Assembly (NCBI GenBank): GCA_945867815.1
Contig: CAMBIX010000002.1
Coordinates: 1-64,000 of the forward strand
DNA from: an uncultured Veillonellaceae bacterium
GTDB lineage: Bacteria > Bacillota > Negativicutes > Veillonellales > Veillonellaceae
Length of the DNA: 64,000 nt
Direction: 5' to 3'
Shown here: positions 16,030-20,649 of the stretch, one piece after another
How the letters are laid out: every line of letters starts with the position of its first letter
Position numbering within the stretch: the stretch's first letter is position 1
Position numbers and translations under genes: made by a program
The notes under the pieces: generated by a model
Databases searched by the model: none
What the model saw: the letters and a program-made list of their open reading frames with translations, nothing else
What the model was told of the DNA's origin: nothing

Positions 16030-17472
16030 ATGATAAAAGAAAATACAAATACATTACAAGTCGAATTATTTCGATTGCTGACCGATGCCTATTATGGTAC
16101 CGGTCTTTTTTATAAAGGGGATGGGCTGAAGAAACACCCTAGAGAAAGTGAAGACAACTTTGCTAGTCGTAAGGTCTTGGCTTATTACCTCAACTATACA
16201 GGCCCTATCGTGGACGCATCGGTAACGCCTATTTTTGCAGATGAAATCAAAAGAGAGTACACGGATACAGCCAAGTTTCAATTGTTCCTAGATGATGTTG
16301 ACCGATTGGGAACATCGCTACAAGAATTCATGCGAAGAACAGCCACGCAGGCTAAGCTATATGGCGCTATGTATGTTCTGGTTAATAACGAGCTAGAAAC
16401 GGGCGTGACACTAGCGGATGAGTTGAACGAGAGAGCACTCCCTTATGTATCGGCTATTAAGCCTGTTGATGTAGAGCATTGGCGATTCGATGAACGGGGC
16501 CGTATGGTTGAGTTCACCTATAAGGATATTATCTTGAATGATGAGAACGACATCAAAACACAGTACTATGAATGGACAACTACAACATGGGCTGTATATG
16601 ACGAGAATAAGGCGCTTGTCCGTAAGGGAGAGCATGGATTAGGACGGGTTCCTGTCGTTCAGTGGCACTCGCGTAACTTATCTCCAATGGATGTATTGCC
16701 ACCAAGTGAATTCTTGTCGGTAGCGCAAACTAACTACCACTTATACCAACTTTGCTCGTGGCATACGCAAATCTTGCGTGACCAAGCCTTTAATATTTTG
16801 ACCATGCCGGATACAGGACAGCAAGATATTACGATTAGCACGAACAACCTCTTAACATATCCAGGGGAAGCAAGTCATCCACCGGCATTTATCGCACCTA
16901 AAGCAGAGCCGGCACAAATGCTAACTGACCAAATCGACCGTCTTATTCGTGAGATGTACCGCATGAGTGGTATTGATAGTGTGGTTGGGGTGGAAAGTTC
17001 TAAGAGTGGTGTTGCTAAGCAGTGGGACTTTGAACGGACTAATCAACGATTGGCTGACTTTGCTAATCAGTGCGAGCGAGCAGAGAAGAACATCGTTGAA
17101 TTGTATGAATTGTGGGCCAATGAAACAGTTGGATACACTTGTGAATATCCTCGTGACTTTAGTATTGGTGATGTGGCTGAAAGTTTGGCTAATGCTCAAA
17201 GTGCTTTGGACCTTGGGTTTAATTCTAAGACCTACAAGCAAGAAGTGGCTAAGAATGTTCTAGAAGCTTATATGCCAAATATTGATCCTGAAACCTATGA
17301 TGCCATCATCGAGGAATTGGAACAGGCTTTTGATGATGCAGAAAAAGCTGCTGCTACTATGCGGGATAATATCGGTGAGGGGGTAAACGGTGCGACTGGA
17401 CAAAACGGACAAGGTGATAGCTCAGTTCGAGGCCTTGGTGAAGAGCCTCCTGAACCAGGGGAAAACACCTAA
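16030..17472 (+). CDS. Portal protein
   Basis: A 480-aa portal (SPP1 gp6-like family by order and features). It forms the dodecameric DNA gate on the head. Typical features are the acidic N-terminal helices, the core stem (MYRMSGIDSVVGVESSKSGVAKQWDFE, about 313-339) and an acidic, Gly/Glu-rich C-terminus. The last 82 nt overlap the head-morphogenesis gene in another frame. Confidence 0.85.
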   Translation: MIKENTNTLQVELFRLLTDAYYGTGLFYKGDGLKKHPRESEDNFASRKVLAYYLNYTGPIVDASVTPIFADEIKREYTDTAKFQLFLDDVDRLGTSLQEFMRRTATQAKLYGAMYVLVNNELETGVTLADELNERALPYVSAIKPVDVEHWRFDERGRMVEFTYKDIILNDENDIKTQYYEWTTTTWAVYDENKALVRKGEHGLGRVPVVQWHSRNLSPMDVLPPSEFLSVAQTNYHLYQLCSWHTQILRDQAFNILTMPDTGQQDITISTNNLLTYPGEASHPPAFIAPKAEPAQMLTDQIDRLIREMYRMSGIDSVVGVESSKSGVAKQWDFERTNQRLADFANQCERAEKNIVELYELWANETVGYTCEYPRDFSIGDVAESLANAQSALDLGFNSKTYKQEVAKNVLEAYMPNIDPETYDAIIEELEQAFDDAEKAAATMRDNIGEGVNGATGQNGQGDSSVRGLGEEPPEPGENT

Positions 17473-18895
17473 GCAAGCTGTTAAAATCGCTTATAAGAAG
17501 TATCCTGTTATGCAGACTATGCAAGGCGAAATAGAAGACCAATTAAGGGATGAGATGAGCCGAGGCTATGGAATGAGGTTAGATCCTGATGATGTAGGCG
17601 AGGCTTTAGCATTGTCTTGGGCAGAAGATGGATTGACACTATCTGAACGCACTACAGCAGGTAGTGAAATTGTAAAAGGCTTTGTAAGGTCGGCTATAGC
17701 TGATGAAATTAGGAAAGGAACCTCTTATACTAAGCTAGCCCGCAAGATATTTGATGGTTATAAGCGAGGCGGGTTGATTCCCGAGCAGGATATACCTCAG
17801 TTTATGCATGATTTATATAAGGCAAGTGCAGGACCTGGTTACACTGAACGAGCCTTCAACGCTGATTTTAAAGAGGTTAAGCGATATCTGAATAAGTTGA
17901 ACACACCTGGCATGAGGGCAGCTTATAATGCCCTTTCAAATGCTATAGCCGAGCGGAACGAGGAAAAGCTCGACAGGGCACTCTACCAATCAACGCAAGA
18001 GCGGACTCGATACTATGCTGAACGCATTGCCCGTACTGAAATGGCTAGGGCCTACAATGATGGGGCCATGGCTAAGTATATGGCTGATGATGATGTAGAG
18101 GCTGTTCATTGGAAGATGAGTGGTAGCCATCCGTCCTATGACATATGCGACTTATACGCAACAGCTGACTTATATGGATTAGGGCCTGGTATCTTCCCCA
18201 AGGATAAAGTGCCCATTCTCCCTGCCCATCCTAATTGCATGTGCCATTTAAAGCCAATTATTTCCGGTACACTTAAGAGTAATGAGCCTAGAGACCGATT
18301 TGAACAAGGGGCTAGGGAATATATATCAAAGATATCTAAACACCATAGAGAGCGATTATTTGGCGTATATGGGGCTAAACAGGTACAGGCAGGTAAGCCA
18401 ATATCTGCCTATCTTCGAAATTACAGTGATAAAAAGCTAAAAACCCGCCTAACAGTACCGGTTGTCAAAGAATTAGACAGAGTAACCATTGGCGGGAATA
18501 CATATGTAGTTGATGGTAAGCATGTATTATTGGATCATAGCGAAGAGGAACGAGGTATTGCGAAGGTTCTTGCTCGGTATTTAGAAAAGGAGGTCCACTT
18601 AGTTCCTAGAATACAGTGGCCTAGGAATATTAGAACACCTGATTATTTAATTGATGGTGATGGCTATGATTTAAAAACGCCATTAGGCTCTGGTAAAAAT
18701 ACTGTGTTTGATATGATTCGTCATGGTAAAGGGCAGGCTAACAGTTTTGTTATTAATATAGATAAAACTCTGCTATCAGAAAAAGATGTACTAAGGCAAG
18801 TAGAAACTGTATTTATACATCCTCGGACAAGTTTTGTAAATAAAGTTATTATCATTCGCAAAGGTAGAGTTATTAAAGTACAGACTAAAAAATAA
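17390..18895 (+). CDS. MuF-type head protein with C-terminal CdiA-CT-like toxin domain
   Basis: A 501-aa polymorphic-toxin form of the SPP1 gp7/Mu F minor head protein. Residues about 1-285 are the MuF domain, ending in the zinc-like HPNCMCHLKPI. A linker follows. Residues about 360-501 match the nuclease fold of CdiA C-terminal tRNase toxins: TPDYLIDGDGYDLK supplies D418, D427 and K429 of a PD-(D/E)XK-like site, then a basic helix and a beta strand ending VIIIRKG. Start GTG 17390 follows GAGGGGG. MuF toxins are known in temperate phages of Firmicutes and are thought to be carried in the head and delivered to rival cells. No immunity gene is seen next to it. Confidence 0.85.
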   Translation: MRLDKTDKVIAQFEALVKSLLNQGKTPKQAVKIAYKKYPVMQTMQGEIEDQLRDEMSRGYGMRLDPDDVGEALALSWAEDGLTLSERTTAGSEIVKGFVRSAIADEIRKGTSYTKLARKIFDGYKRGGLIPEQDIPQFMHDLYKASAGPGYTERAFNADFKEVKRYLNKLNTPGMRAAYNALSNAIAERNEEKLDRALYQSTQERTRYYAERIARTEMARAYNDGAMAKYMADDDVEAVHWKMSGSHPSYDICDLYATADLYGLGPGIFPKDKVPILPAHPNCMCHLKPIISGTLKSNEPRDRFEQGAREYISKISKHHRERLFGVYGAKQVQAGKPISAYLRNYSDKKLKTRLTVPVVKELDRVTIGGNTYVVDGKHVLLDHSEEERGIAKVLARYLEKEVHLVPRIQWPRNIRTPDYLIDGDGYDLKTPLGSGKNTVFDMIRHGKGQANSFVINIDKTLLSEKDVLRQVETVFIHPRTSFVNKVIIIRKGRVIKVQTKK

Positions 18896-18898
18896 AAA

Positions 18899-18963
18899 AA
18901 GAGGACAGTTCCTCTTCCAGAAAGCAAGCTTTCCATGTTAGGGGAAAAGGAACGTCCTCTTTG
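18899..18963 (+). terminator. Long hairpin after the MuF-toxin gene
   Basis: AAAGAGGAC (about 18897-18905) pairs with GTCCTCTTT (about 18953-18961), the stem continuing with GTTCCTCTTCC / GGAAAAGGAAC; an inner hairpin is GAAAGC-AA-GCTTTC. Only weak T-runs follow. It probably ends or attenuates transcription after the toxin gene. Confidence 0.65.
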
Positions 18964-19007
18964 ATTAATTAAATTATAGCATAACTACAATAAATAAACA
19001 ATATGCA

Positions 19008-19077
19008 TGCCCCTTGGTGCTAATTGACCTTGGGGCAGTTTTTATGCCAATTTGCAGGAGAGCGGTTGGCATTTTTT
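19008..19077 (+). terminator. Two back-to-back intrinsic terminators
   Basis: TGCCCC (19008-19013) pairs with GGGGCA (19032-19037), then a T-run. ATGCCAA (19044-19050) pairs with TTGGCAT (19066-19072), then TTTTTT. With the hairpin at 18899 this makes three terminator-like structures before the scaffold gene, in the middle of what should be a continuous late operon. Confidence 0.7.
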
Positions 19078-19095
19078 AGTACAGGAGGTACGAAG

Positions 19096-19710
19096 ATGAC
19101 ATTAGCAGAGATTTATTCTGCTTTGGAGAAAGTGGAAAATGGCAGCACATTAATTGACGGTATTAAAGCTGAGCTAGCTAAAGCTAATAATGACGCCAAG
19201 GGAAATCGAGAAGCCAAGGAAAAAGCAGAAAAGTCTATCCAAGACTTGCAAGCACAATTGACTAAACTTCAAGAGGAAAACGAAGGGTATAAGGCTGCAA
19301 CTGGTGATAAGGATACAAAATTATCAGCATTAGAAAAGCAAGTCCAAACCCTTATCAAATCCACTGAAGAAGCTAAGGCTCGTGCAGAGGCTGAAAACAA
19401 GGCTCGCATTGATGCAGATATTCGTTCCCAGGTAATGGATGCCCTTACTAAATCAAATGCTATCGACCCGCAAGAATTCACTAAACTCATTGCTTCTAGT
19501 ATTAAGGTGGGCGAAGATGGCTCCTACTCTTACATGAAGAAAGATGGGACAAACGGGACTGTTGCGGACGCAGCGGCTGAATGGCTTAGCGATAAACCTT
19601 GGGCGGTCAAATCGACACAAAACCCAGGTTCCGGAGATGCAAAAAGTCCTAATCAACCGACAGGCGCGGAAGATATTGCTAAGGAATTTGGTGCTGCACT
19701 TGGTATTTAA
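19096..19710 (+). CDS. Scaffolding protein
   Basis: A 204-aa protein, long coiled coil in the middle (about residues 30-125, rich in Lys, Glu and Ala), then a small globular C-terminal domain. Size, coiled coil and position directly before the major capsid gene identify it as the capsid scaffold. I use ATG 19096 with AGGAGG upstream; an earlier in-frame start would lie inside the terminators. Confidence 0.85.
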   Translation: MTLAEIYSALEKVENGSTLIDGIKAELAKANNDAKGNREAKEKAEKSIQDLQAQLTKLQEENEGYKAATGDKDTKLSALEKQVQTLIKSTEEAKARAEAENKARIDADIRSQVMDALTKSNAIDPQEFTKLIASSIKVGEDGSYSYMKKDGTNGTVADAAAEWLSDKPWAVKSTQNPGSGDAKSPNQPTGAEDIAKEFGAALGI

Positions 19711-19731
19711 TTAAAGAAAAGAGGTTACTAA

Positions 19732-20649
19732 ATGGCTATTAACACTGTGGAATACGCAAAGATTTTCCAACAAAAACTTGATGAACAAATGCTTGCAGGC
19801 GCTACATCCGGGTGGATGGAAACGAACGCGGGACTTGTTACATACAATGGTGGCGATACAGTTCGCATGCCTAAAATTTCTACAAGCGGTCTGGGCAATT
19901 ATGATCGTGATAACGGATTTGTCCAAGGCTCCGTTACATTGTCCTATGACGACTACAAACTTACGCAAGACCGGGGTCGTACATTCCAACTTGATGCTAT
20001 GGATGTAGATGAATCTAATTTTGTAGCTGCCGCAGGCAATGTGATGGGCGAATTTCAACGGTTGCAGGTTATTCCGGAAGTAGATGCTTACCGCTATTCT
20101 AAATTGGCAGCATTGGCGACTGGGGCCGGTAATGCGTCTGCAGGTAATGCATTGACTAAGGATGATATCTTGGACAAATTGGATACTGATATTTTGGCTA
20201 TCCAAGATAAAGTGGGGTTTGATGAACCACTTATTATCATGATGTCCGCTCAAGTTCGCGCTATTTTGAATGGCGCTAAAGGTATTGATCGCTTCCTTGA
20301 TGTGACTAACTTCCAAGCAGGCTCTATTCAAACCACTGTGAAAACATTTAATGAATGTCCAATTTTTGCTATTCCTTCTGCACGCATGAAGACACAATAT
20401 GTGTTTAATGACGGCACAACTGGTGGGCAAGAAGCTGGTGGTTTTAAAGCGGATACATCCGCTAAAGATATTAACTGGATTATTGCTGCACAACGGGCTC
20501 CAATTGCTGTATCCAAAACTGAAAAGGTTCGTATCTTTACGCCTGATATTAACCAAAAAGCTGATGCATGGAAACTTGATTATCGTAAATACCACGATAT
20601 TTGGGTGCCTGACAATAAATTGGCTGGTGTATACGTTAATACTAAATAA
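19732..20649 (+). CDS. Major capsid protein
   Basis: A 305-aa protein with the composition and position of a phage major capsid protein (HK97-like fold class). Recognisable stretches are the N-terminal TVEYAKIFQQKLDEQMLAGA, the E-loop region GGDTVRMPKISTSGLGNYDR and the C-terminal KADAWKLDYRKYHDIWV. It forms the shell around the scaffold. AAAGAGG ribosome site. Codon use is close to that of highly expressed host genes. Confidence 0.88.
   Translation: MAINTVEYAKIFQQKLDEQMLAGATSGWMETNAGLVTYNGGDTVRMPKISTSGLGNYDRDNGFVQGSVTLSYDDYKLTQDRGRTFQLDAMDVDESNFVAAAGNVMGEFQRLQVIPEVDAYRYSKLAALATGAGNASAGNALTKDDILDKLDTDILAIQDKVGFDEPLIIMMSAQVRAILNGAKGIDRFLDVTNFQAGSIQTTVKTFNECPIFAIPSARMKTQYVFNDGTTGGQEAGGFKADTSAKDINWIIAAQRAPIAVSKTEKVRIFTPDINQKADAWKLDYRKYHDIWVPDNKLAGVYVNTK

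Follow-up and report, generated by a model that had tools for sequence, protein, structure and literature searches.

An opposite-strand structured RNA gene as the probable immunity partner of a CdiA_C-type nuclease toxin carried by a phage MuF head protein

What protects a lysogen from a nuclease toxin that is part of its own prophage's head protein, when no immunity gene is apparent behind the toxin? This question is raised by a 64,000-nucleotide (nt) stretch of DNA from an uncultured Veillonellaceae bacterium (the window; contig CAMBIX010000002.1 of assembly GCA_945867815.1, positions 1 to 64,000), in which the gene for a MuF minor head protein ends in a nuclease domain like those of CdiA toxins (Table 1). 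A sequence-only reading of this DNA had seen no immunity gene, had noted that only three hairpins separate the toxin from the scaffold gene, and had offered three ways out: the host is protected another way, the toxin is inactive, or the immunity gene lies elsewhere. The comparative evidence below favors the first of these. All three hairpins do fold, but the first of them belongs to an RNA gene encoded on the opposite strand, and we think it probable that this RNA is the immunity gene of the toxin, binding and blocking the nuclease in a manner like that of type III antitoxins though apparently unrelated to ToxIN.

The protein with the MuF domain is encoded directly behind the portal gene, and its N-terminal two thirds match MuF and minor head protein families. 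As had been proposed from the sequence, its C-terminus carries a CdiA-CT-like PD-(D/E)XK domain. Residues 415–492 match Pfam family CdiA_C (PF18451; E=3.2e-16, 59.7 bits with a cut-off of 26.6), a name that denotes the Bp1026b CdiA-CT toxin (PMC9990079). The single protein as query found no similar solved sequence in the PDB, and a profile of seven relatives retrieved 4g6v_A, the CdiA-CT of Burkholderia pseudomallei 1026b (E=2.4e-5). An AlphaFold (AF2) model of residues 352–501 has a predicted local distance difference test score (pLDDT) of 93.5 and a predicted template modelling score (pTM) of 0.87; 4g6v is its only significant Foldseek match (E=2.6e-6, probability 1.00), and structural alignment of the two gives a Z of 12.2 over 117 residues, with the next row at 5.6. 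In the window protein and 26 relatives (27 sequences) D418, K429, E387 and Q449 are invariant, and position 427 holds D or E with few exceptions. Since a nuclease fold is predicted and the motif residues D418, D427 and K429 are conserved, neither of the two grounds on which the sequence-only reading would have given up its assignment applies. Judged by profile and model, the C-terminal ~135 residues are an intact nuclease of the CdiA_C/Bp1026b transfer RNA nuclease (tRNase) family. It is hardly credible that this lineage has an inactive domain for which immunity is unnecessary, as the catalytic residues are invariant or nearly so and the fold is confidently predicted. The Bp1026b CdiA-CT is a PD-(D/E)XK tRNase that cleaves tRNA-Ala at the acceptor stem (PMC9086364); the window toxin would likewise be expected to cut tRNA and to be delivered by the virion.

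No immunity-sized plus-strand open reading frame (ORF) lies between the toxin stop codon and the scaffold gene at 19097, and the rest of the genome was searched without finding the toxin domain or the RNA a second time. To this extent the earlier statement that no immunity gene is seen holds; it would probably be a mistake to conclude that the toxin lacks one, since a minus-strand RNA gene likely serves as its immunity gene. On that strand the order of parts is promoter, about 10 nt, stem P1, a GGUC/GGUC junction, stem P2, a C-rich asymmetric loop, a variable P3 or loop, P2', P1' and a U-tract, and across elements P1' abuts or overlaps the toxin stop codon. The apical structured part measures 35–50 nt and has a conserved junction and a conserved loop whose C residues are nearly invariant. 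The window element folds with -32.5 kcal/mol on the minus strand versus -26.5 on the plus strand, and of 25 elements parsed by hand, 24 likewise fold more stably on that strand than on the plus strand. The P1 and P2 pairs of these 25 elements comprise, on the minus strand, 352 Watson-Crick, 21 GU, 2 AC and 2 other pairs. A plus-strand reading of the hairpin was rejected because the GU pairs turn into AC and the folds become weaker.

Covariation between the paired columns is 0.737 in alignment A6 (25 sequences, including stand-alone loci), as against 0.307 +/- 0.023 after shuffling and at most 0.216 when the pairing is slid; in alignment A3 (21 sequences) it is 0.604, as against 0.279 shuffled and at most 0.205 slid. 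In A6 91.3% of cells are paired, a percentage that is partly circular because hand parsing picked complementary segments; that circularity does not explain the slid control, the range of pair types or the GU asymmetry. The alignments were trimmed to P1 (a MAFFT alignment with flanks was misregistered, and RNAalifold found no pairs in it), and structure scoring used nested helices only. Columns 9–12 and 53–56 of A3 form, in most elements, a GGUC/GGUC tandem G.U wobble atop P1, in which 10–55 is G.U in 16 of 21 sequences and 11–54 is U.G in 14 of 21. Tandem G.U wobble motifs can bind metal. We looked for a conserved ORF inside the RNA and found none, and a peptide immunity encoded in it was rejected for this reason. 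Rfam 15 gave no match at E<=1 in positions 17000–20000 of the window and none at E<=5 at the element in six relatives.

The element also has a sigma-70-like promoter of its own. With the spacer fixed at 17, at least 10 of 12 matches to TTGACA/TATAAT are reached on the minus strand in 29 of 37 distinct cases versus 1 of 71 MuF controls (p=6e-18); on the plus strand no case and no control reaches 10. The mean fold z-score is -4.4 in the cases and -0.5 in the MuF controls. These figures bear on the idea that the element is a mere bidirectional terminator or attenuator between the MuF and scaffold genes. A long stem with A/T tracts at a gene end would fit such a role, and terminator-like hairpins occur in the same gap of other prophages. 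We nonetheless consider it very improbable, since a conserved minus-strand promoter is directed into the element, the apical structure and the GU asymmetry speak against it, and 80 MuF control loci that also need terminators give no match to the models described next.

Some version of the RNA lies behind nearly every D-x8-(D/E)xK-type toxin that we collected, whether fused to MuF, split from it or stand-alone in bacteria. The element occurs behind the toxin stop codon in Streptococcus phages and in viral contigs that encode the domain; among 41 viral loci with the domain, 34 have a covariance-model match on the strand opposite to the toxin, placed precisely at its 3' end, and most of the remaining loci have a hairpin and promoter visible by inspection. 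Model R1 gave 40 matches across mixed loci totalling 533 kb; each lies at a toxin 3' end on the opposite strand, and there is none in L030–L035, which are Veillonellaceae prophages with related head genes. Neither R1 nor the second model, R2, matched anything in the 80 MuF loci (512 kb) that lack a detectable CdiA_C domain. R2 reached at least 29 bits in 6 of 300 Negativicutes genomes, all six of which are among the seven genomes with CdiA_C; most of the Negativicutes loci that it matched belong to its training set. The R1 scan of the genomes was empty, this model being too narrow; scans of viral contigs with single-protein queries found nothing, and the plasmids searched gave no match. Three weak genome matches (L184, L185 and L189; 25–27.5 bits) were set aside as chance, as they lie inside coding or repeat sequence with no CdiA_C adjoining. 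Finally, over 22 loci the distance between RNAs follows that between toxins (partial r 0.69, p=0.0005) and hardly that between MuF carriers (0.16). By comparison the linkage to the toxin is nearly exclusive. In L058, L078 and L174 the toxin domain is a separate ORF of ~145–195 amino acids (aa) in the head operon, without MuF fusion, and an RNA-like hairpin with promoter still lies downstream.

The RNA is also found without MuF and without a working toxin. Stand-alone CdiA_C ORFs in the Negativicutes genomes G287 and G260 each have the RNA behind them, and a comparable hairpin with promoter occurs in G294. In G183 a deletion has removed the catalytic core of the toxin, but RNA and promoter persist. 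In a cassette array of genome G013 one RNA follows a toxin interrupted by stop codons; the other lies behind the cassette of a different toxin, including that toxin's immunity ORF, and no CdiA_C toxin adjoins it. Retention without a working toxin is as expected of an immunity gene.

The MuF setting offers a further comparison. Seven related Veillonellaceae prophages share the portal gene and the MuF N-terminus, most of them the scaffold and capsid as well; they diverge past residue ~360, and where the ends differ, homology mostly stops at ~355–380. Five of them (L030, L031, L033, L034 and L035) carry other C-termini, each followed directly by an ORF of 57–99 aa, and L032 has neither toxin nor small ORF. 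The prophages that bear CdiA_C are those of the window and of Veillonella sp. KGMB01456 (L002, 47% identical), and both lack a downstream ORF. Contig C12 of the window's own genome serves as an internal control: there the linker (66% identity) leads into a different toxin and then a 90-aa ORF. In this locus (L038, 6807–8170) the reading frame of a tape-measure-like N-terminus continues into the MuF linker and a toxin of the L031 type; a toxin cassette, with the immunity-like ORF behind it, has been joined to a shortened tail gene. Arrays of decayed MuF-type cassettes with repeats between them occur in G013 (L037, 1–2000 of contig C2; L036, 3000–6100 of contig C5); each cassette has a linker, a toxin and an immunity ORF or RNA, and they resemble the orphan modules of contact-dependent growth inhibition (CDI) and Rhs loci.

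The likeliest role of the RNA is immunity, given its position where an immunity gene would stand, its association with one toxin family across carriers, its retention in toxin-less loci and a promoter that should not depend on late genes. In the mechanism that we propose, the tRNase toxin is probably carried into the recipient cell by the virion. The RNA would be transcribed from its own promoter in the lysogen at a time when the late genes are off, and, with that promoter active, the lysogen would be protected. There it may bind the nuclease domain and block the active site as a pseudo-substrate, as type III antitoxins do. The P1 junction, with a G-C pair beside a G.U wobble, recalls the tRNA-Ala acceptor stem cut by the Bp1026b relative; that the RNA might mimic a tRNA is a guess from this analogy. 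We lean somewhat towards the broader view that an autonomous structured RNA binding an injected PD-(D/E)XK tRNase, possibly as a tRNA mimic, represents a new class of antidote distinct from types I and III, and that toxin and RNA form a mobile cassette among phage heads and bacterial chromosomes.

Several observations weigh against this interpretation. In the window promoter the -10 is perfect and carries the TG of an extended -10, but the -35 is weak. The covariance models were trained on most of the loci that they find; outside the R1 training set are only L060, L041 and one site in L037 (569–627), which are still found with R1 E-values of 0.0012 to 0.028, and a site outside both training sets (L037, 1799–1857) scores 2.5e-4 with R2. 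L055, L080–L083, the three more distant phages L174–L176 and G294 show the hairpin and promoter by folding and inspection, with no model match. The distant relative L086 (25% identity) has no RNA, and neither does an LXG toxin from genome G663 that also falls in PF18451; because of these two, the RNA is assigned to the (D/E)xK branch and not to all of PF18451. The G663 toxin (L180, 526–2780) has a Bp1026b-like FDCF active-site strand without the motif K, and is followed by several candidate immunity proteins of 155–162 aa. Streptococcus phages, lastly, have one to four small ORFs before the scaffold gene. The G663 and Streptococcus ORFs would fit protein immunity, encoded by a small ORF further downstream or replaced by protection at the level of host or repressor, with the RNA having some other role. 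We regard this as distinctly improbable: the window and L002 have no such small ORF, and the most shared Streptococcus ORF family is not toxin-specific. Its members ('MNKRIKKK') were rejected as immunity proteins because they also occur in phages with Clp-protease/HK97-type heads that have no MuF.

The arrangement of the RNA is a more serious objection. A convergent RNA that overlaps the toxin 3' end, with its own promoter and no ORF, has the hallmark layout of Gram-positive type I antitoxins (PMC4147584), and for this reason type I control stays the main rival. Here the RNA would base-pair with the toxin mRNA at its 3' end, causing decay of the mRNA or blocking its translation, as in TxpA/RatA, BsrG/SR4 and RalR/RalA, which like the window RNA involve small untranslated convergent RNAs on phage-related elements; RalR is moreover a nuclease toxin with a small RNA antitoxin (PMC4147584). 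We judge such antisense control unlikely all the same. Type I antitoxins base-pair with mRNA and most of their toxins are small membrane peptides, whereas the window RNA has a covarying fold and accompanies one nuclease family. Pairing in cis needs no conserved fold, and an antisense RNA would suit any MuF C-terminus. It would also give no protection against toxin protein brought in by another virion, and the persistence of the RNA where the toxin gene is broken speaks against an antisense role. Conservation of the fold and of the loop bases, together with the tie of the RNA to one nuclease family, makes binding to the protein itself appear more likely than antisense action on its mRNA.

Binding and neutralization of a ribonuclease by a structured RNA is the logic of the type III systems ToxIN, CptIN and TenpIN (PMC5086642). 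Their antitoxins lie upstream in the same operon and are repeated, cut by the toxin and pseudoknotted (PMC5086642), whereas the window RNA is a single unit, downstream and convergent, with its own promoter and a putative target of PD-(D/E)XK fold. The nearest characterized toxin, CdiA-CTII of B. pseudomallei 1026b (4g6v), has the same fold and nuclease as the window toxin, but its partner is a protein, CdiI; in the window the active-site strand reads (D/E)LK and the RNA gene stands where the immunity protein would be encoded. Jamet et al. 2017 (PMC5576092) described MuF polymorphic toxins with MuF behind the portal gene and an exchangeable toxin C-terminus, as in the window. They report small immunity-like ORFs behind 89.4% of 191 MuF toxin genes, and no RNA is described in the passages considered here, in contrast to the antisense RNA gene without ORF found here. 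We found no RNA antidote of a polymorphic toxin in a library of open-access papers, subscription papers being mostly outside the scope of that search; protection by RNA has thus probably not been described before for such toxins, and the RNA is probably the antidote.

Immunity to polymorphic toxins has so far been sought as small downstream ORFs. If our interpretation is true, toxins listed as lacking immunity may have opposite-strand RNA genes that are invisible to annotation, a further RNA-neutralized nuclease fold is added beside ToxN, and the survival of lysogens that carry their own phage's head toxin is explained with the late genes off. Streptococcus phages and Veillonellaceae prophages would offer a small, readily testable RNA-protein pair.

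Table 1. Positions of the toxin, the proposed RNA gene and neighboring features in the window.
Feature	Position	Strand	Remarks
MuF minor head protein with C-terminal nuclease toxin	17390..18895	+	501 aa, GTG start; phrog_1657 head morphogenesis E=8e-31, PF18451 E=3e-16
Toxin domain, CdiA_C/Bp1026b-like PD-(D/E)XK, residues ~366-501	18485..18892	+	profile, Foldseek, structural alignment
Active-site/conserved residues	E387 (18548), D418 (18641), D427 (18668), K429 (18674), Q449 (18734)	+	
Structured RNA gene, ~75 nt, proposed RNA immunity	18890..18966 (about)	-	convergent with toxin, overlaps its stop codon; structure, covariation, strand, linkage
P1 stem, 5' strand, AAAGAGGAC on minus strand	18954..18962	-	
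P1 stem, 3' strand	18898..18906	-	followed by U-tract 18899-18885 read on minus; intrinsic-terminator-like end
-10 box TATAAT, TGC before it (extended -10)	18973..18978	-	minus-strand promoter conserved in relatives
-35-like hexamer TTGTTT, 17-nt spacer	18996..19001	-	weak; many relatives TTGACA/TTGATA
Conserved linker, residues ~305-362	18302..18475	+	exchange point of C-terminal toxins between prophages; homology to L031-L035 ends at ~355-380
Portal gene	16030-17472		adjoins MuF gene, upstream
Scaffold-like gene	19097..19710 (start ~19097)	+	downstream of toxin

The two CdiA_C-bearing prophages differ in their tRNA genes: where the window has none, L002 carries genes for tRNA-Ser, tRNA-Asn and tRNA-Met upstream of its terminase gene (2730–2978).
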